NCBI GenBank assembly: GCA_016795425.1
Contig: JAEUHG010000001.1
Span: 62,001 to 126,000, forward strand
Direction: 5' to 3'
DNA length: 64,000 nucleotides
Origin: Verrucomicrobiales bacterium
Lineage (GTDB): Bacteria; Verrucomicrobiota; Verrucomicrobiia; Limisphaerales; CAIMTB01
Made by a program: the position numbers and the translations under genes
The notes under the pieces: generated by a model
The model's database searches: none
The model's input: the letters and a program-made list of their open reading frames with translations, nothing else
Told to the model about the DNA's origin: nothing
In this document: in pieces, positions 149 through 14,955 of the stretch
Layout of the letters: each line of letters begins with the position of its first letter
Position numbering within the stretch: position 1 is the stretch's first letter

Positions 149-1210
149 ATGACCTGCCCACATCCACTCCGCCGCCAACTCCGCTGCGTAACGCACCGCG
201 TCCTTCGCATGTTCGCGGTTCTTTGTGTTGGCATCGTCGTCTCCGCGACGTCGCCTGCCGCATCAACCAATGGGCGCCCCACACCGGTCATCCTCGATAC
301 CGATATCGGCGACGACATCGATGATACGTGGGCCTTGGGCCTTCTCCTTCGTTGTCCGGAACTCGACGTCAAGCTGGTGGTTGGTGATTACGGCCGCCCT
401 CAGTACCGTGCGCGGCTGTTGGGTAAGCTCCTGCAGTCCATGGGGCGGTCCGACATCCCCATCGGTATCGGTATCGAGGTCGCCGGCGTGGGAGGTGAAG
501 AATCCCAGGGGCCGTGGTTGGAAGGCTACGACCTCGCCACCTACCCGGGGAAGGTCCACCCAGATGGGGTTCAATCGATGATCGACGTTATCATGGCGTC
601 GCCCGAACCCATCACGCTCATTGCCATCGGTCCGTTATCCAACATCGCGGAGGCTCTATCGCGGGAACCCCGGATCGCCCACCGCGCACGGTTCGTCGGG
701 ATGCATGGCAGCCTTCGTGTGGGGTATGGGGGAAGCACGAATATCGCCGCTGAATGGAACGTGAAATGTTCCCCCGGTGCCTGCCAGAAAGCACTCTCGG
801 CGACTTGGGACGTCCGGATCACTCCACTCGATACCTGTGGACGCGTCCAACTCGATGGACCGCAGTTCGCCCGTCTACGCGACTCGGGCGATCCCATCGC
901 CAAGATCATTCTCGAAAACTACCGCGTGTGGGCCGGCCGACGTAAGGATCTGGCTCCCAAAGACGTAAACGAACGCTCCTCCACGCTCTTCGACTGCGTT
1001 GCCATCTATCTGGCCGCGTCCCGTGGCGCGGATTTCTGTCGCCTGGAGACGCTCCCCGTCCGAGTGACCGACGACGGCTTCACCCGCATTTCCGAAGGCG
1101 CTAAGACCATGACGGCCGCCACTTCCTGGCGAGATCTCGGAGCATTCAATCAATGGATGGTTGACCGGTTGACCACCCCTCTTCCGCCCGCGAAACCACC
1201 GACCCGATGA
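149..1210 (+). CDS. Exported inosine/uridine-preferring nucleoside hydrolase
   Basis: A 353-residue protein of the nucleoside hydrolase family, which cleaves the N-glycosidic bond of ribonucleosides. The family's calcium-binding Asp cluster is visible as DTDIGDDIDD shortly after the signal region, and the mid-protein segment ITLIAIGPLSNIAEAL is the usual family strand. The C-terminal part (ERSSTLFDCVAIYLA) resembles the region that carries the last conserved acidic residue. An N-terminal Arg-rich stretch followed by a hydrophobic run ending in Ala-Ala-Ser suggests export. An alternative ATG at 209 gives a tighter signal peptide. Exported members scavenge nucleosides outside the cytoplasm; that role is inferred. 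The gene stands alone, with a hairpin just after the stop. Confidence 0.88.
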   Translation: MTCPHPLRRQLRCVTHRVLRMFAVLCVGIVVSATSPAASTNGRPTPVILDTDIGDDIDDTWALGLLLRCPELDVKLVVGDYGRPQYRARLLGKLLQSMGRSDIPIGIGIEVAGVGGEESQGPWLEGYDLATYPGKVHPDGVQSMIDVIMASPEPITLIAIGPLSNIAEALSREPRIAHRARFVGMHGSLRVGYGGSTNIAAEWNVKCSPGACQKALSATWDVRITPLDTCGRVQLDGPQFARLRDSGDPIAKIILENYRVWAGRRKDLAPKDVNERSSTLFDCVAIYLAASRGADFCRLETLPVRVTDDGFTRISEGAKTMTAATSWRDLGAFNQWMVDRLTTPLPPAKPPTR

Positions 1211-1445: not shown

Positions 1446-3392
1446 GTGAGCCACGTCTTCTACGAACTCAAGGTCTCCGGAAAGCTCCCGTCGCCCAATG
1501 GCGTCGGCATGAAGATTCTCCAATTGACCCAAGAGGCCGACAGCACCCTCGATGAGATCAGCAAGGTTATTCGATCCGACCCCGCCCTGACCGGGCGCAT
1601 TCTCAAAGTGGCTCATGCTTCCGTAGGCAACAACGGATCCGGCCGTCCCTCGGCCGCCCAACTCGACGAGGCATTGTTGCGCCTTGGCTTCTCGTCGCTT
1701 CGCGATCTCGCCCTGGGTTTCTCCCTGCTTTCCGGCAACGCCCGGTCGGTCTGCCAGGGATTCGATTACCCGCGCTTCTGGCATACCTCCCTGGGGAGAG
1801 CAGTGGCCGCTCAGCAACTCACCGAGACCCGCGACGGCTGCGCCGGTTCGGAAAGCTATGTCTGCGGTCTGCTCTGCGGCATCGGCCGACTTGGCCTCGC
1901 TTCCGCCCACCCCGAGCGTTATACGCGCGTGCTCGAATCCAACGCCGCCTCCGACAGCAATGACCTCGCTCGGCTCGAGGTCGAGGCGTTTGGCATCTGC
2001 CATCGCGAGTTGACCGAAGCCATGCTTTGCGACTGGGGATTCCCCAAACACCTCGCCCGTGCGGCAGCAACTTATGATCGACGCGACGAGGGATCGAGCG
2101 ACTCCCAGGATCGCCTCAGCATCCTGCGTCGCATCCTCAACCTCGCGGAACGCCTTGCCACGCTCATCGATAAGGAGTCCGGGTCTTCGGAGGGCCGGCA
2201 GGAAGCCGACGAACTCCGCGCGACATTCGCCGATCTGGACATCCCAGCCGATCAGGTTTCGCCCTCGATTTCGGCGATTCGAACCGCCTGGAAGGAATGG
2301 AGCGCACTGCTCAATTTGGCGCCGGCATCGACTCCCACGCGGACCGGACGCCCCGTCTCCGGTGCCGCGACCGCCACCGCTCCAGCGGCCCAGAATTCTG
2401 TCGACTCCCCTTCCGGATCGGCGGCGGTCAGAAAGTCTTCCGGAACCCTCGTGGTTCTCAGCGGGGACGACCGGGTCGCTTCCACCATCAGCGACTTCAT
2501 CCGTACCTGGGAGTACGACGTGCTTCGAGCGAGGAACACCCGATCGGCGGTGGGTTTGGTGCTCAATCAAACGCCGCAAATCGTCGTGGCGGCCGGCACT
2601 GCCGAAGCCATGGAACTGAGCGCCGCCTTGCGAACCTTCGAGGCCGGCCGATCGATCTACATCCTCCTGGCAACGCCCCACCACGATCCAAAGCGCATCC
2701 TCAAAGCTCTCGAGGCCGGGGTAGACGACTTCGTCATCCTTCCAGCCAAAGAGGGCGAAGACGTCCTGCGCCTTCGCATGGTGGAACGTGCTCTGGAACT
2801 GCGCCGCCGCCTGGACGGCCGCGAAAAGAGCCTGCAGAAGAGTCTGGCCGAACTCGCTGTCGCCAATCGAAAGCTCCGCCGGGCCGCCATGACCGACGCC
2901 TTGACCCAACTCCCGAATCGCCGATTCGCGGAGGAGTCCCTGAAGGAAGAATGGGCGGCCGCCGAGGAACGCAAGACCGATCTGGGGGTCATCTTCGTCG
3001 ACCTGGATCGCTTCAAGTCGGTGAACGACACCTACGGCCATTTGGTCGGCGACTTGGTATTGGCAACGATCGCCCGTTTGTTTCGCGAAGAGACACGGGC
3101 TCTCGATGTCGCCTGCCGTTACGGCGGCGAGGAGTTCCTCATCCTGTGTCCCGATACCGACCTTCCAGGGGTCGCGCGATGCGCCGAACGCCTGCGTGAA
3201 CGCGTGGCCAGCACCACCATCGATCTTCCAGGGGGCCCTCAGTCCTTCACCATCAGCCTCGGTGTTGCCACGCGGCTCATGGGCCCGGCCGCCATTCCAA
3301 CCGCCGAAGCGTTGGTCGAACTGGCCGACCAGGCCGCCTACGTGTCCAAACGAACCGGACGCAACCGCGTCACCCTCGCCACCCAGGCCTGA
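1446..3392 (+). CDS. HDOD / pseudo-receiver / GGDEF diguanylate cyclase
   Basis: A 648-residue signalling protein. Residues about 10-200 form an HDOD domain. Residues about 335-455 look like a response-regulator receiver, but the phospho-acceptor Asp position reads Ala (QIVVAAGTAEAM) and the conserved Lys position is also lost (DDFVILPA), so it is probably a non-phosphorylated pseudo-receiver. A helical linker (EKSLQKSLAEL) leads into a GGDEF domain with active-site GGEEF at 560-564, preceded by RALD, an RxxD inhibitory site at the canonical five-residue spacing. It should make c-di-GMP with product inhibition. The start is GTG at 1446. The gene is convergent with the EAL gene and lies about 1.1 kb before the pilus-like cluster, whose ATPase carries a c-di-GMP-binding motif. 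Confidence 0.9.
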   Translation: MSHVFYELKVSGKLPSPNGVGMKILQLTQEADSTLDEISKVIRSDPALTGRILKVAHASVGNNGSGRPSAAQLDEALLRLGFSSLRDLALGFSLLSGNARSVCQGFDYPRFWHTSLGRAVAAQQLTETRDGCAGSESYVCGLLCGIGRLGLASAHPERYTRVLESNAASDSNDLARLEVEAFGICHRELTEAMLCDWGFPKHLARAAATYDRRDEGSSDSQDRLSILRRILNLAERLATLIDKESGSSEGRQEADELRATFADLDIPADQVSPSISAIRTAWKEWSALLNLAPASTPTRTGRPVSGAATATAPAAQNSVDSPSGSAAVRKSSGTLVVLSGDDRVASTISDFIRTWEYDVLRARNTRSAVGLVLNQTPQIVVAAGTAEAMELSAALRTFEAGRSIYILLATPHHDPKRILKALEAGVDDFVILPAKEGEDVLRLRMVERALELRRRLDGREKSLQKSLAELAVANRKLRRAAMTDALTQLPNRRFAEESLKEEWAAAEERKTDLGVIFVDLDRFKSVNDTYGHLVGDLVLATIARLFREETRALDVACRYGGEEFLILCPDTDLPGVARCAERLRERVASTTIDLPGGPQSFTISLGVATRLMGPAAIPTAEALVELADQAAYVSKRTGRNRVTLATQA

Positions 3393-3398
3393 CCCGAC

Positions 3399-4196
3399 TC
3401 AAGCGCCACGGGCCAAATCCACCCCGGACGCCTGCTCGAGAAATCCAAGCGTGGCTTCGATCGGCATCGGCCGCGCAATCTGATAACCCTGCAGTCGGAG
3501 AAATCCCACCTCCCGCAGCAGGGCGGTCAGTTCCACGTCTTCCACTCCTTCCGCCACCGATTCGATCTCCAGCGCTTCCGCCAGTTCGAGAATCGACTGC
3601 AGCATCCGCTTCACGCGCGAGTCCCGCACCCGCTGGCACAACCGCATGTCGACTTTGAGTTCCGACAACGGCAAATCGACCAGACAATGATACGAGGCGT
3701 AGCCGGCGCCAAAATCATCCAGCGACCAACGGAAGCCCCTGGACACCGCTTCGCGCATCACTTCGCACACTCCCGGCGACTCCAGAAATGCCTCGCGCTC
3801 GGTGACTTCCAAAGTGATCCATCCCGGTGCTACGCCATGTTCGGCGGCAATCTCAGTGAGGGTGCTGCAAAAGTCCTTCTCCAAGACCTGTCCCCGCGAG
3901 ACGTTCAGCGAAACACCGACGTCCCAACCCGCCGCCCGCCATCTGGACAAGGCGCCGAGCGCCAAATCGGCCAGGTGCCGGGCTATCGCACCAATCAAAC
4001 CGTTCTGCTCTGCCAAGGGGATGAAGTCATGGGGCGGGACCCACCCCAAATCCGGGTCGTTCCACCGGGCCAGGCTCTCAAAGCCCGTCACCCCGAGATC
4101 ACGGCCGCTGACGATCGGCTGATAGAAAGCGGTGAGGCGGCGATCCCGTACGGCACGGGTCAATCGCTCCAATAGCTGGCTTCCCTGCAACGACAT
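3399..4196 (-). CDS. Stand-alone EAL-domain c-di-GMP phosphodiesterase
   Basis: A 265-residue protein that is almost entirely an EAL domain, expected to hydrolyse c-di-GMP to pGpG. The catalytic signature is intact: ESL in place of EAL, SLNVS, LEVTE, DDFGAGY, LKVD, AEGVE and QGYQIARP, so the metal-binding Glu and Asp residues and the catalytic Gln are present. There is no sensory or membrane domain. The ATG at 4196 is directly preceded by an in-frame GTG at 4199. It converges with the diguanylate cyclase gene with a six-base gap between the stops, which gives a synthesis/degradation pair beside the pilus-like cluster. Confidence in the family is high; the link to the cluster is inference. Confidence 0.92.
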   Translation of the reverse strand: MSLQGSQLLERLTRAVRDRRLTAFYQPIVSGRDLGVTGFESLARWNDPDLGWVPPHDFIPLAEQNGLIGAIARHLADLALGALSRWRAAGWDVGVSLNVSRGQVLEKDFCSTLTEIAAEHGVAPGWITLEVTEREAFLESPGVCEVMREAVSRGFRWSLDDFGAGYASYHCLVDLPLSELKVDMRLCQRVRDSRVKRMLQSILELAEALEIESVAEGVEDVELTALLREVGFLRLQGYQIARPMPIEATLGFLEQASGVDLARGA

Positions 4197-4492
4197 CACG
4201 TCGGTATCGGCTGCCCCAATCCGTCCCCTGAGCGTGAATCCAATCGAACGGAAAAACCCTCATTCATTGTCATGAAATCCCATCGAATCACGCCTCTAAT
4301 CCCCGGAACCATACGCCGTTCGCTTCAGGGCAATGGCCGATACTCCTGGTACTGAATTTCCTACATAACCAACCGGACACTCCCACCGGGCCTTAAGGAA
4401 CGTTCCATAACGCCGATGAGTTTCGGGTGCGACGGCTCCGTTGCCGTGGGCATGTTTTTTCCGAATGTGCAACCCAACAGCGACCTGCCAAA

Positions 4493-5146
4493 ATGAAAGT
4501 TCCTCAGCCAACTAGGCATCGAAACGGATTCACTCTGATTGAAATCATCGGGGTCATCGCCCTGGTAGCCCTGCTCGCCGCCATCCTCGCCCCCCGTGTC
4601 ACCGGAGTGGTCTCACGCGGAAAGGTGAGCAGCACCGCCGAAGGCATCGCCAGTCTGAAAACCGCCACCGCCGATTACATCGCCAAGAATTCCTCCCTGC
4701 CGCTCCGAGCCGGAACAGGCTCAACCAACAACGCGGTCGCCACCGGACGTTTCGACGCCGATCTGGTTGCGGGTGGATTCACCGAGAAGCTCTTTTCCTG
4801 CGGCATCGGAACCCAAACTTTTGACGAATCAGAATTGACCAGCCGCACCCACGTGCGCTCCCAGACGGTGTCCACCAGTGCCTCCATCACCGCGCCAACA
4901 TCGACCGCCGGTGGGACAGGCTTCGACCTGGACCGGGATGCCAACACCGCGGACTTCAGCACCGGGCAGGTCGTGGTCTCAGCCTTCATACCTGGCGTGA
5001 GCATCGCCGACGCGATCGCGCTGAACAAACAGGTCGACGGCGACGTCAACACCGGCACGGGTGCCGACTCCGTGGGACGCTGCCTCTACAGCGCCGTCGA
5101 CGCCGATAACAAGGTCACGGTCTACGTCTACATCGCCCACTACTGA
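4493..5146 (+). CDS. Type II secretion / type IV pilus pseudopilin (class III signal)
   Basis: A 217-residue pseudopilin. The N terminus has a short basic leader, then the prepilin peptidase site G12|FTLIE with the conserved Glu5 of the mature protein, followed by a hydrophobic helix (IGVIALVALLAAI) that would hold the subunit in the membrane and in the filament. The C-terminal half is Thr/Ser/Asp-rich and resembles no family I recognise with certainty. The ATG at 4493 is chosen because it gives a leader of normal length; an upstream in-frame start at 4427 would add 22 unlikely residues. It is the first gene of a same-strand cluster that continues to 14955 and could be the major pseudopilin. 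No prepilin peptidase is in the window. Confidence 0.85.
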   Translation: MKVPQPTRHRNGFTLIEIIGVIALVALLAAILAPRVTGVVSRGKVSSTAEGIASLKTATADYIAKNSSLPLRAGTGSTNNAVATGRFDADLVAGGFTEKLFSCGIGTQTFDESELTSRTHVRSQTVSTSASITAPTSTAGGTGFDLDRDANTADFSTGQVVVSAFIPGVSIADAIALNKQVDGDVNTGTGADSVGRCLYSAVDADNKVTVYVYIAHY

Positions 5147-5291
5147 CCGTGGAGAGACCACACTGGCCTGCCTTGGCTGACGTCTTTTCGGGAAGATCCG
5201 GTTTGCCCATGATGTCCATCGGTCCCTCCGACTGATTCCCACGGCCGGCCGTCGTCGCGTCCCCACTCAACGGGATCTCCGACGCCCCACG

Positions 5292-6965
5292 ATGGCTCCC
5301 TCAGTTGCAAATCCCCGGTTGGGTGATTGGCTGGTCCACCACGGCCATGTCAGTCCCGCCCAATTGGACCTCGCTCTGCGCGAGCAGAAGCGGGAAGGAA
5401 AACTCCTCGGCGAGGCCTTGCTCGATCTTGGCTTCGTCACCCAGGACATCCTGGCGCAGTTCCTGGCGAGGAAATCACAGACCCAAACCATTGAGGTCCG
5501 GCACCTCTCCATTCCCCGCGACCTTCTCGACCTTATCCCCGAGACCACGGCGAGGCGGCTGATCGCTCTTCCGGTCGAACGCGACGGCAATGAACTCACG
5601 GTGGCCATCGCCGATCCGCTCGACGTGGCGGCCTTCGATCACCTGGAACAAACCACGGGCCTGACGGTGCGCCTGCTCGCCGCACCCGCCGGCGACTTGC
5701 AGGAAGCCATCGAACGGCTCTACGAATCGCGACAATCGGTCGAGGAGATCGTCGACGAATTGCTCCGACTCGGAACCGATCGGCTCGCCCACACCACGGA
5801 AAAGGATGCACCCGCGATCCGGCTCTGTGATCGCATCCTGCAGGAAGCCGTACAGCGTGGCGCCAGCGATATCCACGTGCATCCCGAAGAAAAGGTCATC
5901 CGCGTTCGCTTCCGTCAGGACGGCCTGCTTGACGCGGGTTTCCTTGTTCCGAAACCCATTCAACCCGCCCTCGTCGCACGCTTCAAAATCCTCGGTGGAA
6001 TGGATATCGCGGAAAGTCGGCGCACCCAGGACGGACGGGGCAAGGTGGTCATTGGCGGGCGCGAGATTGGATTGCGGTTCTCCTCGTTGCCCACTTCGTT
6101 TGGCGAGAGCCTCGTCCTGCGCATCCTGGATCGATCGAATCTGCGCCTGGACCTGGGAAGCCTCGGTTTTGACCCGGTTCTCGAACAGCGCTTTCGGGAT
6201 CTGCTGAAACTGCCGCACGGCATCGTCCTGGTCACCGGCCCGACCGGCAGCGGCAAAACCACCACCCTCTATTCGGCCCTCACACAGATCGACGGCACAC
6301 GACACAGCATCTTCACGCTCGAGGATCCGGTGGAATTCCAGCTCCCTCTGATCCGGCAATCCCAGATCAACGAAACGGTCGGACTTACCTTCGCCGACGG
6401 GCTGCGAACGCTCTTGAGACAGGACCCGGATGTGATCCTGGTGGGGGAAACCCGCGACACCGAGACGGCTCAGCTCATGATTCGTGCAGCCTTAACCGGG
6501 CATCTTGTCTTTTCGACTCTCCATACCAACGACGCCCTCGGAGCCATACCGCGCCTCCTCGATCTCGGCGTGCCTGCCTATCTGCTCGCTCCCACACTGC
6601 GCGGAATCCTCGCCCAGCGACTGGTCCGCCGCCTCTGCAGGCACTGTCGCCAACCCGACCCGGAAGCGCCTCAACGCCTCGCCTCGCTAAAGACCGTGAT
6701 TCCGCCCGTTGCCGACCCCAAGCCATGCCGACCGGTCGGATGCGACCATTGTCACGGCTCGGGCTTCTCCGGCCGCGTCGGAATTCACGAATTAGTCGTG
6801 ATCGATGCTGACTTTCGGTCCGCCATCGCGGCCGGTGAATCCGCGGAGATTCTTGCCCAATACGCCAGGGACCGAGGCTTCCGAACCCTCCTTGACGATG
6901 GACTCACCAAGGTTCTGCGAGGACACACCACTCTCGAAGAAGTCATCGATTCCACCGGCTGCTAA
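5292..6965 (+). CDS. GspE/PilB-type assembly ATPase with MshEN c-di-GMP-binding domain
   Basis: A 557-residue hexameric-motor ATPase that would power pseudopilus or pilus assembly from the cytoplasm. Residues 9-32 (RLG...LV..G......L...L..Q) followed by a five-residue linker and LG...L..LG......L at 39-58 match the tandem MshEN motif that binds c-di-GMP in MshE-type ATPases; the last Gln of the second repeat is Lys61 here. Walker A is GPTGSGKT at 316-323, with an Asp box, the Walker B-like DVILVGETRD and a His box (STLHTND) after it. A four-Cys zinc site is visible as CRHC and CDHC near residues 440-485. The gene lies between pseudopilin and platform genes, with eight bases to the next start. 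Confidence 0.95.
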   Translation: MAPSVANPRLGDWLVHHGHVSPAQLDLALREQKREGKLLGEALLDLGFVTQDILAQFLARKSQTQTIEVRHLSIPRDLLDLIPETTARRLIALPVERDGNELTVAIADPLDVAAFDHLEQTTGLTVRLLAAPAGDLQEAIERLYESRQSVEEIVDELLRLGTDRLAHTTEKDAPAIRLCDRILQEAVQRGASDIHVHPEEKVIRVRFRQDGLLDAGFLVPKPIQPALVARFKILGGMDIAESRRTQDGRGKVVIGGREIGLRFSSLPTSFGESLVLRILDRSNLRLDLGSLGFDPVLEQRFRDLLKLPHGIVLVTGPTGSGKTTTLYSALTQIDGTRHSIFTLEDPVEFQLPLIRQSQINETVGLTFADGLRTLLRQDPDVILVGETRDTETAQLMIRAALTGHLVFSTLHTNDALGAIPRLLDLGVPAYLLAPTLRGILAQRLVRRLCRHCRQPDPEAPQRLASLKTVIPPVADPKPCRPVGCDHCHGSGFSGRVGIHELVVIDADFRSAIAAGESAEILAQYARDRGFRTLLDDGLTKVLRGHTTLEEVIDSTGC

Positions 6966-6972
6966 TCCCCTC

Positions 6973-8184
6973 ATGCCCACCTTTCGCTACAAAGCCGTCG
7001 ATGGTCGCGGACGAACGCACCGGGGAAAATGCAATGCCCCTTCCGAGGACGCACTGAGCGCTTCCCTGCGGAACCAGGGACTCTGGCTTGCGGAATCCGA
7101 ATCCCATCATCCCGCGAAGTCCGGCCCACCCCCGGTGATCTCATCCCGCGCGATTCCGCGGAGGATCCTGGTCCAGTTCTTCCTCTCCCTCGGCCTGCAA
7201 CTAAAGGCCGGCGTGCCGGTTCACACCGCGCTGGCATTCGGCCAGGCCGATCACACGCATCATGCGTTCCGCTCCATCCATGCCGATCTCGTGGAACGAG
7301 TGCGTGCAGGGATCAGCCTGAGCGAAGCATTCAGCGTCCATTCCCGTGCTTTCACTCCCCTGGTCATCAATCTGATCCGCGCCGGGGAATCCAGCGGCAA
7401 CCTCGCCGGAGCCTGCGATGAAGTCCGTGCCCACTTGGAGTGGTCCGACCGCATCGCCGCCGACGTTCGCCAAGCCCTGGTCTACCCGGTGGTGGTGCTG
7501 TGCGCCGTAGGGGTGTTCTTCTTCATCGTCTTTTCGTTCTTCATCCCGCGCTTCTCCGGTGTGCTCAGGGAATTGGGGGTTCCTCTTCCGGCGATTACGC
7601 GGGCGATGATCGCGATCAGCGAATTTCTCCGGCTCCATCATGTCGCCGTCTTCGCCACCGTCGTCGCCGTGGTCCTGGGAGCGGCCCTCGCGCACAGGCT
7701 CTCACCGCGGGTGAGGCACCTCGCCGACGCCGCCAAAATGAGGATCCCACTATTCGGCCCCATCCTTTGCCAGATCTGTTTGTCGCGCTTTCTGCAAAAC
7801 CTCTCCAGTCTCTATCGCTCCGGCATACCGCTGCTCGATGCACTGCGCCTCTGCCAGTCCCTGGTCGGCAACCGAATCCTCGAACAAGGTGTCGCGCAGA
7901 TCGAAGAAGGCGTGCGCGCCGGACGCTCCCTCCACGCCACCATGTCGGATCTCCCCATCTTCCCACCCATGGTGCTCCAAATGACGTCCCTGGGCGAAAC
8001 GACCGGGACCCTGGATCAATCCCTTCAAAGCGTCGCCGACTATTACAACGTGATGATCCCGCGGTCGGTGAAGCGACTCTTCACCCTCCTCGAACCGACG
8101 TTGATCCTGTTCCTGCTCGTCCTGGTCGGCATCGTCGCTCTTTCCGTCTTCCTTCCCATCGCCTCCGCGCTGGAAGCACGATGA
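6973..8184 (+). CDS. GspF/PilC inner-membrane platform protein
   Basis: A 403-residue polytopic protein of the GspF/PilC family, the inner-membrane platform on which pilins are assembled. It starts with the family-typical MPTFRYKAVDGRGR, then has two GspF domains, each with the conserved FF..L...L.AG.P pattern (QFFLSLGLQLKAGVPV and RFLQNLSSLYRSGIPLLDAL) and Gly-Glu-Ser/Thr motifs (RAGESSGNLAG, LGETTGTLDQ). Three strong hydrophobic spans are visible: two in the centre and one at the C terminus (LILFLLVLVGIVALSVFLP). The start at 6973 lies eight bases after the ATPase stop and was preferred over an upstream in-frame ATG inside that gene. The stop overlaps the next start (ATGA). Confidence 0.94.
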   Translation: MPTFRYKAVDGRGRTHRGKCNAPSEDALSASLRNQGLWLAESESHHPAKSGPPPVISSRAIPRRILVQFFLSLGLQLKAGVPVHTALAFGQADHTHHAFRSIHADLVERVRAGISLSEAFSVHSRAFTPLVINLIRAGESSGNLAGACDEVRAHLEWSDRIAADVRQALVYPVVVLCAVGVFFFIVFSFFIPRFSGVLRELGVPLPAITRAMIAISEFLRLHHVAVFATVVAVVLGAALAHRLSPRVRHLADAAKMRIPLFGPILCQICLSRFLQNLSSLYRSGIPLLDALRLCQSLVGNRILEQGVAQIEEGVRAGRSLHATMSDLPIFPPMVLQMTSLGETTGTLDQSLQSVADYYNVMIPRSVKRLFTLLEPTLILFLLVLVGIVALSVFLPIASALEAR

Positions 8185-9083
8185 ACACACCCCATCCAGC
8201 TTCGGTCCTCACGATGTGGCCACACGCCGGTCCGTATAAACACGGACCCGCCCGGGCATTCACTCTGATCGAAATGATCGGAGTGCTGACCCTGGTGGCC
8301 ATCTTGGCTGCCGTCTTCACCCCGAGTCTCGCCCAGCAACTGAGCCGGGCGAATGCCAGCAAGGAGGAATCCATGCTGACGACACTCACCGACGGCCTGC
8401 TCGCGTCCATCGCCGCTCAGCAATCCATCCCCGGACCCAACACGTGGGTCTCGCGCGTCGCCTCCATGACCGGACTCGCCTCCAACGAAGTAGCTCGCAC
8501 CCGACCTTCCGACGCCTCCACCGCGAGGATCTACCTGATTCACCCGAACTTCAGCCCGTGTCTCGGTGCTTCGCCCGGCGTTTCCGACCCCATCTGGAGC
8601 CAGAGTTCCACCGGCGCCGTCACGGTGGCGGAGGCGAGGATCATGATCCTGAGTGTTCACAAACCCGGCCTCGCCCTTCCCGTCTCCAGCGGAGCCGCGT
8701 CGTCCGCCGCCGCTTTCGATGCCATCTGGAACTGGACCTACGATCCCACCACCGATGCCCCGCCCTCCGGTTGGCCGTCCAACTGGAACGGCAATGGAGA
8801 GTACCTGCATGTGGGCCGCATCAATCTCATGTCCAACTTCCAACGGGCGACCTTCAGCAACAGTGGCTACCCCGACGCCCTTCCTTTCATCAGCGCCGGC
8901 TCATCGTCGATCGCAGTCCTCGATGCCGCTCACGCCTTCGAGGGGTTTTACCTCAATGGCACGCTCCTCCGACTCTACGAGCACAATCCCGAGGATACCA
9001 CCGAGGGCGACCTCAATCTGAGTCATACGGTTCAAGGCCCCGTGAACTTCGTTTACGATGGTGAACACTGGTCTTCCGAATAA
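8181..9083 (+). CDS. Pseudopilin with Ala at the -1 cleavage position
   Basis: A 300-residue pseudopilin-like protein. A 26-residue leader ends in A26|FTLIEMIGV, so the prepilin motif and Glu5 are present but the usual Gly at -1 is Ala, a change prepilin peptidases can tolerate. A hydrophobic helix follows. The large C-terminal domain shares blocks with the next protein: IPGPN, FDAIWNWTYDP, APPSGWPS.WN and a Tyr/Leu-rich segment near the end, so the two genes are tandem paralogues. The start codon overlaps the platform-gene stop (ATGA) and the end overlaps the next start by 26 bases, indicating translational coupling. Its likely place is as a minor pseudopilin near the filament tip. Confidence 0.82.
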   Translation: MNTPHPASVLTMWPHAGPYKHGPARAFTLIEMIGVLTLVAILAAVFTPSLAQQLSRANASKEESMLTTLTDGLLASIAAQQSIPGPNTWVSRVASMTGLASNEVARTRPSDASTARIYLIHPNFSPCLGASPGVSDPIWSQSSTGAVTVAEARIMILSVHKPGLALPVSSGAASSAAAFDAIWNWTYDPTTDAPPSGWPSNWNGNGEYLHVGRINLMSNFQRATFSNSGYPDALPFISAGSSSIAVLDAAHAFEGFYLNGTLLRLYEHNPEDTTEGDLNLSHTVQGPVNFVYDGEHWSSE

Positions 9084-10548
9084 ACGCCGCGGGTACGCCG
9101 CGCTGCTCCTCGTCGTCGCGCTGACCACCGCGACGGTCGGGGGCATCATTCTCATGCCCAACCGCCTTGAGCGCCTGCTCCAGAGCCGTTGGCAAAACGA
9201 AGAAAGGTTCCTCGCCCGACTCAACCTCGCCTTTCGGGATTCCGTCAGGCAGGAGCTGAAAATCCCTGGGCCAAACCAATGGACCAAGGCCATCGCCGAC
9301 ACAGCGAATCTGGCTCCCGACGCCGTTGAGTACCTCGACCCCGGGGCCGCCAAGAACACGACGATGCGGCGCATCCTTCTTGTCGATCCCGGCCTCCCGA
9401 ACGGCCTCCTTCCTTACACTCAGAACCCCAACGGCCTTCAAGGGGCCCGCACCAATCTCCTCGGTCCCAACGCTCGGGTCATGATCGTGAGCAACACCCG
9501 GAGCGGGCTGACCCTTCCGTTGACCAGTGGAACGCCCTCCACCGACGCGTTCGAGGCACTATGGACCTGGGCTTATGATCCTTCGACCAAGGCCCCACCG
9601 AGTGGTTGGCCGAGCGCTTGGAACCAGCGTGGCGATTGCCTTCACGTTTCCCGTCTCCTTCTGTCGCAATGCTTCGCCCAGATCTCGGCGGATACCCTTC
9701 GCCTGGGTGTGGGTGTCGGCCATCCCATCCCCGGCTCCGTTGTGCCGGACCAAATCATCACTGAACCCACGACCTACTACCTTCTCAAGGGAACTCCGCT
9801 GGCGATCGCTCGAACCGACGGCACGCCCTACGCACGACATATCGTCCGTCACGACCAAGCCTGGGACTTGTCTCCGCTGGTCGATGACAGTACCGCCCTC
9901 CTCTATTTCGATCTCAACGAATCCTCCGGGTCCGCCGTCACCAACAAAGGAACGCTGGGCACCGCCTGGAATGCAGTCGCCACCCTGGGCGCTACCCTGG
10001 GATCTGCCGGTCCGCGACCCCCCGAATTCCCAACGCTGTCGTCGAGCAACCGCGCCGTCCGCCTCAATTCCCTGACCGGAAAGGTGGCGACCGACTTCGC
10101 CTGGCCCCGACGACTCACTGATTACACCCTGGCCGGCTGGATCCGTCCGGATGCTTTCTATTGGGGCGACGGCATGATCTTTGGATTTCCGGACGCCCTT
10201 GGCATTCACCTCACCGGTTACGGTCGTCGCCTCACGCTCCGCGGCATCTCCCGTGTCGCGGGCACCCTCACCCACCGGTACCGATACCCTGCCAACTCGT
10301 GGCACCACGTGGCGCTGGTAGGCAAGGGTCGAAATCTCCTCCTCTATGTTGACGGTGCGAAGGTCGCCAGCCGTCGTTCCAGTTCGCGATCCTGCCGCTC
10401 CAGTTGCAGTCAAACGTTCCAGATCGGCAGTTCGGGACGGTGGTGGCAACCCCGCTATAGCGGCTACGTCGATGAAGTGATCCTCTTCGATTGGGCGTTG
10501 GATCCAACCCAGATCGTCGCGCTTCTCCACGGCGACACCAGCCCATGA
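9058..10548 (+). CDS. GspK-like pseudopilin fused to a C-terminal LamG domain
   Basis: A 496-residue protein. The N terminus, KRRG12|YAALLLVVALTTATV, looks like a class III leader and helix, but mature position 5 is Leu instead of Glu, as in GspK-type tip pseudopilins. Residues about 55-260 are paralogous to the preceding protein (shared IPGPN, YDP.T.APPSGWPS.WN). Residues about 277-485 form a LamG/concanavalin-like sandwich: LLYFDLNESSG, YTLAGWIRP, WHHVALVGKGRNLLLYVDG and YVDEVILFDWAL are typical. LamG domains bind glycans or proteins, so this may be a tip adhesin or substrate sensor. The gene starts inside the upstream gene, so expression is probably coupled. Domain calls are firm; the tip location is inference. 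Confidence 0.85.
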   Translation: MVNTGLPNKRRGYAALLLVVALTTATVGGIILMPNRLERLLQSRWQNEERFLARLNLAFRDSVRQELKIPGPNQWTKAIADTANLAPDAVEYLDPGAAKNTTMRRILLVDPGLPNGLLPYTQNPNGLQGARTNLLGPNARVMIVSNTRSGLTLPLTSGTPSTDAFEALWTWAYDPSTKAPPSGWPSAWNQRGDCLHVSRLLLSQCFAQISADTLRLGVGVGHPIPGSVVPDQIITEPTTYYLLKGTPLAIARTDGTPYARHIVRHDQAWDLSPLVDDSTALLYFDLNESSGSAVTNKGTLGTAWNAVATLGATLGSAGPRPPEFPTLSSSNRAVRLNSLTGKVATDFAWPRRLTDYTLAGWIRPDAFYWGDGMIFGFPDALGIHLTGYGRRLTLRGISRVAGTLTHRYRYPANSWHHVALVGKGRNLLLYVDGAKVASRRSSSRSCRSSCSQTFQIGSSGRWWQPRYSGYVDEVILFDWALDPTQIVALLHGDTSP

Positions 10549-10589
10549 CCCCCAACCGCGACGCACACCCTCGCTGATCCATCCGCGCG

Positions 10590-12014
10590 ATGATCCGCCA
10601 CCGAACAGCCTCCACCCGACTGGGAATCACCTGGATTCACAGCCGACTGGAAATGGCCGAGGTGCCGTCCCACGGGGCTACCCGCACTTGGGTCGCCCCC
10701 GGGCCCGTCGCCGACGTCGCGGCGTTGGGCGAGGCGATTGCCGAGGGAATCCGCGCCCTGGAATCCAGACAGCGCCGGGCCAACCTCGTGCTGGACCATC
10801 GGAGCATCGTCTTCCATCTCCAGGAGGCGCCGCCGGCTCGGGGCCGAACCCTCGATCAACTCCTCCACCGACTCGTCGCCGAACAGCGACTCTTCCCTGA
10901 GCCCGCGGTATTCACCCGGACGCCGGCACCGCCCTTGGCAGGCCGCAACCGTTGGTTGCTCGCCGTCCTGCCACGGCCCTTCCTCAACGACATCGCCACT
11001 GTGTTTGCCGCGAATGGGATTCAGCTCGCCGGAGTCTTTCCCGTCGCCACTCTTGCCGCTCAGCAGCGCATCAATGACCGCCAGGCCTCCGTCGAACCCG
11101 AATTGGTGGTGACCCAACTCCGGGACGCGCGATTGCTGGTCATCGCCCGTGGCTCAGAAGAAATCTGGTTCGCGCGCTCGCTGCAGAATGCCGAGGGACC
11201 CGAGGGCACCCGCTTGGAACAGGAGATTCACCGCACTCTCCAGTTCGCCAAGCAACGCTTCGGCACCTCGATACGCCGAGTCGTCTGGCAACGCGACGGC
11301 TCTGAAGAATCGCCCCTCCACCGACCGCACCTCGCGGAGCCCGGACTGGAATGGATCAGCAGCGATGGCCCGACTCTCAGCTTCGCGGCTGCGTCCGCGC
11401 ATTTGGAACCCGCGGCCCCCTTTAATTTCAGCAAGGCCATTGCCGGCGGACTTCTCGCCGATCGAAAGCCGGTGGCGCTGATCGCCGCTGCCGCCCTGGT
11501 CCTCGCGGTCGCTTTCGCCACCTCGGTCGAGGTTTATCGACACCAGGCTCTGGAATCCGCCATGCGCGTGGACCGCGAAGCACACGCCGATGCGGAAGTC
11601 GCCACGGCCCGAGCCAACCGACAACGAGAGGCGGATCACTTCGCCCGGTTTGTCAGGTCGGTCCAGACCGGCGCCACGAACCACCGCGCCCTCCTGTTCG
11701 CCCGCCGTCTCGTCGAAACGACACCCGCACCGTTGCGCCTTTCTAGGATTGCCGCCGTCCAAGGCACCAATGGCTGGGAATTCACACTCGAAGGGGCAAC
11801 GCGCATTCAAGGCAGCCAATACCTAGGCGTGGTCGAGGAGTTCGAGAAACGACTGGAACATGACGTCGTTCCCTGTCGCGTCCTCAACAGCACCGCACGC
11901 CAGACCCTGGCCGGAATTCCTAACCCGATCCCACCGTCCCCTTTTCCGCGCTTCCAAGGCTTCCAACCACGCACCGACGAGCGGTCGTGGTTCATTTCGG
12001 GACTGCTCCCATGA
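10590..12014 (+). CDS. GspL-like (PilM/PilN-type) assembly protein
   Basis: A 474-residue protein with a cytoplasmic N-terminal part of about 290 residues that resembles the actin-like fold of GspL/PilM, a single membrane span at about 294-312 (ALIAAAALVLAVAFATSV) and a periplasmic part with a heptad-like helix (EAHADAEVATARANRQREADH) followed by a small PilN/GspL-like domain ending in Pro-rich sequence. Such proteins connect the motor ATPase to the inner-membrane subcomplex. It is followed by a GspM/PilO-like gene whose ATG overlaps its stop, the same order as gspL-gspM and pilN-pilO. Similarity is by architecture and order; sequence conservation is weak. Confidence 0.72.
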   Translation: MIRHRTASTRLGITWIHSRLEMAEVPSHGATRTWVAPGPVADVAALGEAIAEGIRALESRQRRANLVLDHRSIVFHLQEAPPARGRTLDQLLHRLVAEQRLFPEPAVFTRTPAPPLAGRNRWLLAVLPRPFLNDIATVFAANGIQLAGVFPVATLAAQQRINDRQASVEPELVVTQLRDARLLVIARGSEEIWFARSLQNAEGPEGTRLEQEIHRTLQFAKQRFGTSIRRVVWQRDGSEESPLHRPHLAEPGLEWISSDGPTLSFAAASAHLEPAAPFNFSKAIAGGLLADRKPVALIAAAALVLAVAFATSVEVYRHQALESAMRVDREAHADAEVATARANRQREADHFARFVRSVQTGATNHRALLFARRLVETTPAPLRLSRIAAVQGTNGWEFTLEGATRIQGSQYLGVVEEFEKRLEHDVVPCRVLNSTARQTLAGIPNPIPPSPFPRFQGFQPRTDERSWFISGLLP

Positions 12015-12730
12015 ACTCCGCCGCTCCCATTGCTCCCAAGCTGCCGACGGCGAATCCGGTCCTGGAAAGGGCCTCACCCCCGGCTACCACGGGGTCAGCC
12101 GGAAACCCGCACCCTCAGGAACGGTCCCCGGCGCGGCGTCGAGAACCCATGGGCCGCAACGCCTGGCGGTCTCTTGGCGAACCACGCGTCGCCTGGACCC
12201 TGATCACGGTCGCCGTTTTCATCGTCGCTGGGAGCTCGTGGTTTCGTCTTCCTGAGGCGAGACGCGCTTCTGCCCGAGTCGCAATGGCCTCCCGTCGCAC
12301 GCCCGCGGCGACAACGCCGGCCATTGATCCCGCCGAGTTTGCCGCACTTCGTGCCGCCGCGCAGAAAGCCGGCGATCGTCTGGTCGCGAATCGTGGCGAG
12401 TTCCGCGACCTCCTCACCCACATCGAAAAGGAGGCCTTGGCGCAAGGATGGCAAATTGAAACGCAAGTGCAGCCCGCAACGCGGGGCCCGGACCCGCTTC
12501 CGGAACTCGTCCATTATCCCGTCACCGCCATGCTTGCAACCGGCGCCGATCGCGACGCTCCCCCGGCTTTCAACGGGCTGCTTCGATGGCTGGAAGGCCT
12601 CTCCAATTCGTCCAAGGCAATTGAGATCACGTCGATATTCATGATGGGGGAGCCGGGAGGGCTGACCAAAGCGCGGGTGGAGCTGCGCCTGATCGGGCGC
12701 ACCGACCATGAGTTTCACTCTAAGAAATAA
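12011..12730 (+). CDS. GspM/PilO-like inner-membrane assembly protein
   Basis: A 239-residue bitopic protein: a cytoplasmic Pro/Ala-rich N-terminal tail of about 58 residues, one membrane span at about 61-78 (AWTLITVAVFIVAGSSWF), a helical stretch (AEFAALRAAAQKAGDRL) and a compact C-terminal domain ending LTKARVELRLIG, which resembles the ferredoxin-like fold strand pattern of PilO/GspM. The ATG at 12011 overlaps the upstream stop (ATGA), and the end overlaps the next gene by 23 bases. By position and layout it should pair with the preceding GspL/PilN-like protein. The assignment rests mainly on synteny. Confidence 0.65.
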   Translation: MNSAAPIAPKLPTANPVLERASPPATTGSAGNPHPQERSPARRREPMGRNAWRSLGEPRVAWTLITVAVFIVAGSSWFRLPEARRASARVAMASRRTPAATTPAIDPAEFAALRAAAQKAGDRLVANRGEFRDLLTHIEKEALAQGWQIETQVQPATRGPDPLPELVHYPVTAMLATGADRDAPPAFNGLLRWLEGLSNSSKAIEITSIFMMGEPGGLTKARVELRLIGRTDHEFHSKK

Positions 12731-13220
12731 ATTGCTGATGGTCTCCATCGCGACCGCTGCCACCTATCTCTGGTGGCCGGGCAACTCCCCTGTCCCACCG
12801 GCAACGGCTGCCAAGGTATCGACTCGACCCAAGCCCGCGATGGCCACACCTCTGGAAGCGATCGATCCCCCACCGTCCACGCCCCAACCGTCGACTCCCC
12901 CACCCTCCGCCCCACCGATCTCGTCCCCGTCCGCCACGCCACGCGCGGATCCCTTCGCTTACCCCACCCCAGCATCCCCGGAAGTGGCTGCGGCGGTTCG
13001 CCCCACCAACTCCCCTTCCGCGGCTCTGATACTACAAGGGATCTCCATGGGAGACGGCAGAGGTCTCGCCGTCGTCAACCGCCGCATCGTCGCCGTCGGC
13101 GATTCGATCGGGGCTTGGCGCATTGAACGCATCGAATCCAGTCGCGTGTGGATTCGCAGTGGCAACGCCCATGAACCCGTTGCCTTGGAATTCCAACGTG
13201 TCCCTACCCCCACCCGGTGA
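12708..13220 (+). CDS. GspC/PilP-like secretin-connecting protein
   Basis: A 170-residue protein with an N-terminal membrane segment (LLMVSIATAATYLWW), a long Pro/Ser/Thr-rich linker at about 24-100 and a small C-terminal beta domain (LQGISMGDGRGLAVVNRRIVAVGDSIG...RIESSRVWI). The C-terminal domain has the pattern of the homology-region domain of GspC and of PilP, which reaches across the periplasm to contact the secretin. It lies directly before the secretin gene, as pilP and gspC usually do. The start lies inside the upstream gene. Confidence is moderate because the family signal is short. Confidence 0.7.
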   Translation: MSFTLRNKLLMVSIATAATYLWWPGNSPVPPATAAKVSTRPKPAMATPLEAIDPPPSTPQPSTPPPSAPPISSPSATPRADPFAYPTPASPEVAAAVRPTNSPSAALILQGISMGDGRGLAVVNRRIVAVGDSIGAWRIERIESSRVWIRSGNAHEPVALEFQRVPTPTR

Positions 13221-13266
13221 AACCCCAGCCTCTTCGTCTGATCGGACCTACCATTTTCCTCACCTC

Positions 13267-14955
13267 ATGAAGGCCAAACCTCCGCTTCCCGCTCCCCATT
13301 CGGATCACGCCAGGCCGAAGTCAATCGCCGCCTGCCAACTTGGGGCAACGCGCGCCGGAATCCCCGGACTGTCCTGGTCCCTCGCGCTCCTTATTGCACC
13401 TCTCCTGCTGCTCGGCACCGGTTGCGAAACCACCAAACCCGAAGGCAATCCCAATCGCGCCTGGCTCGCCACCACCAACACCAGTCCTGCCAAATCAGCG
13501 CCGCCGCGCATGACCAGCACCATCGCTCCCGGGCCAGGTCAGGATGTCGCCACCGGCCCGTCTCCCGCGCCCCGCTCGGAGGAATCGCAGGCCGAGATGC
13601 GTTGGCAAAAGGTCTCCGACGGACGTCGATTCTCGTTCGAGGCCAAGGATCTTGAGATGAAGGACGCGCTCGCTCTGTTCGCTCAAAGCAATCAGTTGAA
13701 CATCGTTCCCGATCCCGACGTGACCGGGACCGTTTCCGTCACCATTCACGATCTTCCCCTGGATAAATGCATGGAGGCAATCCTCGCCGCCCATGGCTAT
13801 TACGCCGAGGAAAGTCGGGGTTTGATACGAGTCCGTAATCAGCGCACCGAAGTGTTCACCGTCGATTACCTCCGCTTGATTCGGAGCGGCAATGGAACCT
13901 CGACGGCCAATATCTCCAGCGGTTCCGGTTCGAATTCCGGCGGGCAGGGCGGCGCCCCGGCAACCGGATCCGCCGCAGGTTCGACCAGCGGCCAAGGCGC
14001 AGGCGATTCCACCAGCGTCTCCATCAACAAATCGGACAGCGTCGATTTTTGGACCGAAATCGAAGCCCAGTTGAAGAGCCTTCTTTCGCCCCAGGGCAAG
14101 CTCGCCATCAACCGCGTCGCCGGCACCATCATGGTCACCGATCAGAAGGATCAGGTGGATCGAATCGGCACCTACCTCAAGCAGATCAAACGCACCCTCC
14201 ATCGACAGGTCGATCTCGAGGCTCAGATCTACGAACTGGTGCTCAACGACGAGTATCACTTCGGCATCGATTGGCAGTCCGTCATGATCAAGGCGGAGGA
14301 ATGGGCCGTCTCCAGCGGCTTCGGCGGCATTCCCAGCTCGAGACTCACCGTCGACAATCCCATCGGCGGCAACACCCCCGGGCGTTCCGCGTTGTCGCTG
14401 GCCATCACCAAGGACGAAACCAAGGTCGTCATCGATGCGCTGAAGCAGATGGGTAACCTCGAGGTCGTCTCCCAACCCCGCATCCGCACCCTCAACAACC
14501 AGGCGGCCATGATCAAAGTGGGCACCGACAAGCCTTTCTTCCGCAAAAACACTGTCGTCACCACCTCCAACGGCGGCACCCAGACACAAACCGACGTCGA
14601 TGTTCGAACCATCACCATCGGCACCATCCTCTCGCTGACGCCCCAAATCTCCGAGGACGGCTGGATCACCATGGATATCTCCCCGGTGATCACACGATTG
14701 GTCTCGACGGCCTCGGGACCTGACGAAAGCACGGCCCCGGAAGTGGACATCAAGCAGGCTTCGTCTCTGGTTCGCATTCCTCAAGGCGCTACGGTCGTCA
14801 TTGGCGGGTTGATCCAGAACGAGCGCTACAAAACCACCCGACGCGTCCCGGTTCTCGGCGACATTCCCGGACTTGGCTACGCCTTTCGCGGCGTTTACGA
14901 CGACACTCGCAAAACCGAACTCGTCATCTTCATCACCCCGACCATCGTGCAGTAA
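13267..14955 (+). CDS. Outer-membrane secretin, probable lipoprotein (GspD/PilQ/MshL family)
   Basis: A 562-residue secretin. A hydrophobic signal ends in LLLGTGC53, a plausible though imperfect lipobox. Residues about 115-195 form an STN/N0-type domain (FSFEAKDLEMKDALALFAQ), followed by a Ser/Gly-rich low-complexity linker at about 205-250 and an N-domain with GTIMVTDQKDQVDRI. The C-terminal secretin domain shows VDLEAQIYELVL, LEVVSQPRIRTLNNQAA, a Thr/Gln-rich loop, LSLTPQISEDGWITM, IPQGATVVIGGLI and the closing VPVLGDIPGLGYAFR...ELVIFITPTIV. It would form the export gate for the pseudopilus or pilus. The ATG at 13267 gives a standard signal; an earlier in-frame start at 13123 lies inside the preceding gene. 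It is the last gene of the cluster. Confidence 0.94.
   Translation: MKAKPPLPAPHSDHARPKSIAACQLGATRAGIPGLSWSLALLIAPLLLLGTGCETTKPEGNPNRAWLATTNTSPAKSAPPRMTSTIAPGPGQDVATGPSPAPRSEESQAEMRWQKVSDGRRFSFEAKDLEMKDALALFAQSNQLNIVPDPDVTGTVSVTIHDLPLDKCMEAILAAHGYYAEESRGLIRVRNQRTEVFTVDYLRLIRSGNGTSTANISSGSGSNSGGQGGAPATGSAAGSTSGQGAGDSTSVSINKSDSVDFWTEIEAQLKSLLSPQGKLAINRVAGTIMVTDQKDQVDRIGTYLKQIKRTLHRQVDLEAQIYELVLNDEYHFGIDWQSVMIKAEEWAVSSGFGGIPSSRLTVDNPIGGNTPGRSALSLAITKDETKVVIDALKQMGNLEVVSQPRIRTLNNQAAMIKVGTDKPFFRKNTVVTTSNGGTQTQTDVDVRTITIGTILSLTPQISEDGWITMDISPVITRLVSTASGPDESTAPEVDIKQASSLVRIPQGATVVIGGLIQNERYKTTRRVPVLGDIPGLGYAFRGVYDDTRKTELVIFITPTIVQ

Follow-up and report, generated by a model that had tools for sequence, protein, structure and literature searches.

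A candidate tip pseudopilin lacking Glu5 and carrying a LamG module in Verrucomicrobiota

The stretch of DNA analyzed here (64,000 nucleotides, G000:C124:62001-126000, henceforth the window) belongs to a genome of 8.8 Mb and contains an operon for two tandem paralogous pseudopilins. One of these, ppA, has the glutamate at position 5 of the mature protein (Glu5), whereas the other, ppB, has lost it and ends in a LamG module. ppB is very probably a pilin-class subunit of a filament. A position at the tip of that filament is likely, and binding of an extracellular ligand by the LamG module, although less certain, is the expectation that we favor. The complete reading, in which ppB is a tip-capping modular pseudopilin that turns its LamG module outward on a c-di-GMP-responsive filament of the type IV pilus (T4P)/type II secretion system (T2SS) kind, is held here with moderate confidence.

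Lectin-bearing modular pilins (PMC8179133, PMC9934059) and Glu5-less tip subunits are already known. What is new is that both properties are found in one subunit, next to a Glu5-bearing sister, and are conserved in a clade. A search of the literature on T2SS and pseudopilins of Verrucomicrobiota revealed nothing on such a tip subunit. For a group in which almost no such pili have been described, ppB provides a candidate for a filament tip that binds a ligand.

Genomic Context

The operon is located on the + strand (4427-14955) in the order pp1, E ATPase, F platform protein, ppA, ppB, the proteins in L and M position, a GspC/PilP-like protein, and the secretin (Table 1). When checked for T2SS components, E, F, and the secretin scored strongly, whilst G and C remained under the curated cut-offs; pp1, the true start of which may lie anywhere within 4427-4493, matched the GspG model TIGR01710 at 3.7e-8, under that model's cut-off. 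The MshL score of the secretin, 237.8 bits, is below the curated threshold of 250.2. A search of the operon for the minor pseudopilins H, I, J, and K yielded only pp1, ppA, and ppB. A canonical T2SS with F-G-H-I-J-K-L-M-C-D-like genes is present elsewhere in the same genome (L122, G000:C21:80000-92105). The genome contains one prepilin peptidase gene, the product of which would have to serve the ppA/ppB operon as well.

Table 1. Features of the ppA/ppB operon and neighboring genes, in window coordinates
Feature	Coordinates	Strand	Evidence and remarks
Inosine-uridine nucleoside hydrolase family gene	149-1210		5' of the GGDEF gene; PF01156 4.7e-32
HDOD - receiver-like - GGDEF protein, putative diguanylate cyclase	1446-3392	+	Upstream of operon; Pfam HDOD 4.8e-34, GGDEF 1.2e-43, motif GGEEF
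EAL-domain protein, putative c-di-GMP phosphodiesterase	3399-4199	-	Pfam EAL 4.8e-55
pp1, GspG-like pseudopilin, probable major subunit	4427-5146	+	N_methyl 4.9e-6; Glu5 present
Assembly ATPase, GspE/PilB type, with MshEN N-domain	5292-6965	+	T2SSE 6e-125, MshEN 6.4e-19, NF053729 c-di-GMP motif 4.8e-18
Platform protein, GspF/PilC type	6964-8184	+	T2SSF 3.1e-50
ppA, pseudopilin with Glu5, no extra module	8181-9083	+	Mature from residue 27; Glu5 codon 8271-8273
ppB, modular pseudopilin without Glu5	9058-10548	+	Mature from residue 13; Leu5 codon 9106-9108; pilin part approximately residues 8-270
LamG/ConA-like lectin-type module of ppB	9898-10527 (start approximate)	+	PF13385 match 10114-10515
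GspL/PilM-N-position inner-membrane protein	10590-12014	+	Operon position, kept in relatives; no Pfam family
GspM/PilO-position protein	11987-12730	+	Position, partly conserved
GspC/PilP-like protein	12708-13220	+	T2SSC 0.01, GspC_delta 7e-4, both sub-threshold
Secretin, closest to MshL	13123-14955	+	Secretin 1.7e-43; TIGR02519 MshL 1.2e-70

The first MshEN motif of the ATPase comprises 24 residues, RLGDWLVHHGHVSPAQLDLALREQ. The published motif reads RLGxx(L/V/I)(L/V/I)xxG(L/V/I)(L/V/I)xxxxLxxxLxxQ (PMC5013675), and the ATPase agrees with it everywhere except at one position (His11), with the RLG, Leu, Leu, and Gln residues present. The RLG triplet was found in all six ATPases of the ppA/ppB operon type vs. 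none of the 18 of a sister type of operon described below. In the second motif, the Arg and the final Gln are lost, which makes the affinity of the ATPase for c-di-GMP uncertain. In the related genome G003, a homologue of the HDOD-GGDEF protein is encoded upstream of the operon (L038 1-1971), with GGDEF/EAL counterparts on either side; no GGDEF or EAL motifs were seen in the stretches read of the loci of a second carrier genus, g41. The first motif and the GGDEF and EAL neighbors suggest that the filament is controlled by c-di-GMP. This can be put no more firmly than as a reasonable expectation, because of the losses in motif II and because the sister-type ATPases also pass the NF053729 cut-off.

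In its MshEN-containing extension ATPase (PMC4624765, PMC5013675) and in a secretin nearest to MshL, the system resembles the MSHA type IV pilus of Vibrio cholerae. It differs in that the secretin falls just short of the MshL cut-off, that no other msh genes were identified, and that the globular domain of ppA and ppB matches no Pfam family.

The GspE/F/G/C/D-like parts of the operon would also be in line with a short T2SS-type pseudopilus, with ppB at its tip and LamG as a periplasmic receptor for cargo, i.e., folded exoproteins that are pushed out through the secretin. A role in contacting T2SS substrates has been suggested for GspK at the tip (PMC7541494), and several large LamG proteins encoded elsewhere in the genome could be such cargo. 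However, this possibility is weakened by the lack of an H/I/J/K set in the operon and by the full T2SS with G-H-I-J-K that is already available in the genome, and the MshL-like secretin, the MshEN ATPase, and the GGDEF/EAL neighbors suggest a c-di-GMP-responsive pilus instead. A role as cargo receptor is unlikely, though not far-fetched.

The ppA/ppB Pair

Tandem paralogy of two pseudopilins at 8181-10548 had been proposed in an earlier, sequence-only reading of the window. The coordinates proved right, and the shared blocks IPGPN, F.A.W.W.YDP, and APPSGWPS.WN are present in both genes, the reading frames of which overlap by 26 nt. That reading had recommended aligning the two proteins; in a BLASTP alignment, they proved to be about 34% identical across some 200 residues. 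A tree was built from 68 pseudopilins of the family from about 31 loci, leaving out LamG and the columns of the N-terminal helix, and was rooted at the midpoint only. It contains a ppA clade (n=7, support 100/98) and a ppB clade (n=7, 100/95), which form a joint clade (100/99) apart from the 54 other members. The tree thus backs the proposed duplication and, as the two are sister clades, each with a single change, indicates a lineage-specific event that is peculiar to this operon type. Judged from the same tree, the duplication predates the divergence of the two carrier genera, or an exchange between them.

These genera are represented by seven genomes, three of g1 (G000, i.e., that of the window, G003, and G004) and four of g41 (G044, G085, G203, and G205). 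A phylum-wide search of 388 evenly drawn genomes turned up no additional full-length gene of the ppB type beyond the window's own genome and order. A peptide-pattern scan with the window's protein gave no match, and one with the G085 protein retrieved DMJJ01000422.1 from Verrucomicrobiales bacterium UBA11320, which is apparently identical to G203.

The sister-type operon is the commoner kind and is also found in the genome of the window (G000:C46, L009), with a tandem pair of its own in which both members have Glu5. Both pseudopilins of the sister operons end in a segment with a YMxxYxxWAxxGFP-like pattern, which is absent from ppA and in the place of which LamG stands in ppB. Four sister operons (L042, L087, L088, and L090) contain four tandem pseudopilins each. 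In the tree, these group into two alternating pairs, which suggests that the pair was duplicated repeatedly.

The globular domain common to ppA, ppB, and the sister pseudopilins matches no Pfam family; N_methyl alone was matched, in 29 of 35 members. AlphaFold2 (AF2) modeled ppA with a pLDDT of 90.8 and a helix at residues 29-80. Whereas the helix matches GspG and type IV pilins, a fold search based on the ppA model retrieved no PDB structure at E<=0.001, so that membership of the H, I, J, or K class cannot be assigned from the fold. This order-wide pseudopilin family (represented by window 8241-9083) combines a confidently predicted globular domain with the lack of a Pfam domain or PDB fold at E<=0.001.

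Position 5 and the Tip

Glu5 is normally needed for the packing of subunits inside the filament. As claimed previously, ppA has a prepilin signal with Ala at -1 and retains Glu5: its leader ends in GPARA and is followed by the mature start FTLIEMIGVLTLVAILAAVF. Its match to N_methyl (E=2.3e-4, 21.1 bits) fell just short of the cut-off, 21.2. In ppB, the predicted cleavage site lies between the leader MVNTGLPNKRRG and the mature start YAALLLVVALTTATVGGIILM, which places Leu at mature position 5, again as claimed; the protein did not match the N_methyl model of Pfam, as expected for a protein without Glu5.

Glu5 is present in 59 of 67 aligned N termini. It is kept by ppA in all seven genomes and by 52 of the 53 aligned homologues outside the ppA/ppB group, vs. 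none of the seven ppB proteins, in which position 5 is L (window), G (G003), V (G004), or W (G085, G044, G203, and G205). Since it is fixed in seven genomes and affects the second gene only, the loss of Glu5 in ppB is not due to chance. The one exception among the outside homologues is a protein without LamG from a tandem set of four in a sister-type operon (L090:2103-3191, - strand, G126:C243; QQA followed by MALLFSIGVV); its loss of Glu5 is independent of that in ppB. The canonical T2SS of the window's genome served as an internal control: G, H, I, and J have Glu5, and K has Val5 (RG followed by SVLIVVLWV).

Glu5 might also have drifted off in a decaying duplicate that is no longer assembled. 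Consistent with such decay, ppB diverges faster than ppA and pp1; between G000 and G003, identity is about 38% for ppB, 46% for ppA, and 65% for pp1. However, the reading frame of ppB is open in all seven genomes, 24 residues of its pilin part are invariant across the clade, its N-terminal helix has stayed hydrophobic, and the loss is fixed in two genera but never occurred in ppA. Decay is, therefore, very unlikely. The hydrophobic N-terminal helix could also anchor ppB in the inner membrane as a protein outside the filament, with LamG held in the periplasm. This is scarcely credible given the homology to ppA along the entire pilin part and the prepilin-type leader in all seven proteins, with Gly (Ala in G203) at -1. 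The N-terminal inner-membrane helix of pilin type, on which the sequence-only reading had staked its proposal, was indeed modeled by AF2 as a single helix (residues 8-66).

In that reading, ppB was compared with GspK, and loss of Glu5 was taken as the hallmark of the tip subunit. Like ppB, GspK and PilX of T2SS and T4aP have mature N termini without Glu5, and they have been placed at the tip (PMC7541494, PMC9934059). The comparison holds for the missing Glu5 but not for descent. GspK has an α-domain (T2SSK) inserted in its pilin sheet, whereas ppB has LamG at its C terminus instead; T2SSK (PF03934/PF21687) gave no match in ppB at E<=1, whilst the true GspK of the same genome (L122) scored 2.2e-12 and 3.1e-16. 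ppB was, therefore, rejected as a GspK homologue, the likeness being limited to the general pilin N terminus. The hallmark, too, stands in part only: because PilA of Streptococcus sanguinis lacks Glu5 and yet has been likened to the I subunit (PMC9934059), the rule that a subunit without Glu5 belongs at the tip appears strong but not absolute. Conversely, the sister operons keep Glu5 in both pseudopilins and their filaments are presumably still capped, so loss of Glu5 would not be required for capping. With Glu5 kept in one member and lost in the other, the paralogues form a natural pair with the same fold, in the same operon, in seven genomes, which allows the rule to be tested by a single substitution.

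The LamG Module

Misassignment of LamG had been named as a result that would overturn the proposal, but three approaches agree that the domain is real. PF13385 matched residues 353-486 of ppB (E=9.9e-17); a PDB profile search retrieved 5hon, the lectin-like domain of an arabinanase (5.3e-10), and 4qvs (1.1e-9); and Foldseek aligned the ppB model with ConA-like β-sandwiches, i.e., the arabinanase domain, pentraxins, and S. sanguinis PilC (7oa7, E=7e-5). The single-chain AF2 model, based on 39 sequences, had a mean pLDDT of 73.5 and a pTM of 0.56, with a confident pilin part, poorly modeled stretches in 277-351, and a LamG core of pLDDT 70-91.

The sequence-only reading had suggested a search for the LamG fusion in other genomes. 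Relatives were found indeed, but they are confined to the seven genomes of g1 and g41. Six of the seven ppB proteins carry LamG, joined at one and the same junction behind the final strand of the pilin part; the module of G004 is cut off by the end of its contig. In G003, homology stops at this junction, and the protein ends in a tail of some 45 residues that is rich in W, R, and D. The absence of LamG from G003 is evidently real, because the next gene starts directly after the tail. Parsimony on the ppB tree favors one gain and one loss; a tree of LamG only separates the two genera, and a single clade was not rejected (AU p=0.18 and 0.32). Low-complexity tails or inserts rich in Asp, His, or Trp/Arg occur in pseudopilins at L038:10260-10397 (G003), at the C termini of the second pseudopilins of L052 and L049, and at L087:12033-13343; a VKSNNGHGNNxDGxDxSNPG-like motif lies within the stretches of L049 and L087.

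As the operon of G003 is otherwise intact with the tail in place of LamG, the module would seem dispensable. Instead of binding a ligand, it might serve as a structural cap or stabilizer, or it might plug the secretin. However, it is kept in six of seven proteins and resembles ligand-binding ConA-like domains, and the modules of other modular pilins serve binding (PMC8179133, PMC9934059). A purely structural role is quite improbable.

ppB has the features of a modular lectin-pilin, i.e., a class III (prepilin) leader, a long hydrophobic helix, and a C-terminal ConA-like/LamG domain that is not pilus-specific. S. sanguinis PilC (PDB 7oa7; PMC9934059) likewise consists of a pilin moiety and a C-terminal ConA-like lectin module, is modeled at the tip, and is a proven glycan binder. 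Unlike ppB, it has retained Glu5, and an Ig-like domain separates its pilin and lectin parts; moreover, the Glu5-less subunit of S. sanguinis is a separate protein, PilA, whereas ppB would unite both roles. In a survey of modular pilins, pilins with Laminin_G_3 (PF13385), which resemble ppB in combining a pilin with a LamG-type module, were among the 15 commonest architectures (PMC8179133). Proteins entered that survey only if they had the canonical N-terminal motif IPR012902; since ppB is missed by N_methyl, Glu5-less proteins of its kind would tend to escape it. This suggests that surveys with such a requirement may overlook modular tip pilins. A literature search on MshQ and LamG yielded nothing useful.

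Proposed Function

In the mechanism that we propose, the sole prepilin peptidase of the genome would cleave ppB after Gly12. Without Glu5, ppB would be unable to neutralize the N terminus of another subunit stacked on it and could, therefore, only be the topmost subunit. ppA would be located directly below and link ppB to the GspG-like shaft, which pp1 would build and extend. The filament would be driven through the MshL-like secretin by the GspE/PilB-type ATPase, the activity of which c-di-GMP probably adjusts via MshEN. LamG, facing outward, could then bind an extracellular glycan or protein of a surface, the biofilm matrix, or a polysaccharide. Tentatively, the clade may have merged the roles of Glu5-less tip cap and lectin in one pseudopilin, creating a c-di-GMP-triggered, glycan-grabbing filament that possibly catches polysaccharides. 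In Planctomycetes, pili-like fibers appear to bind dextran (PMC5394234).
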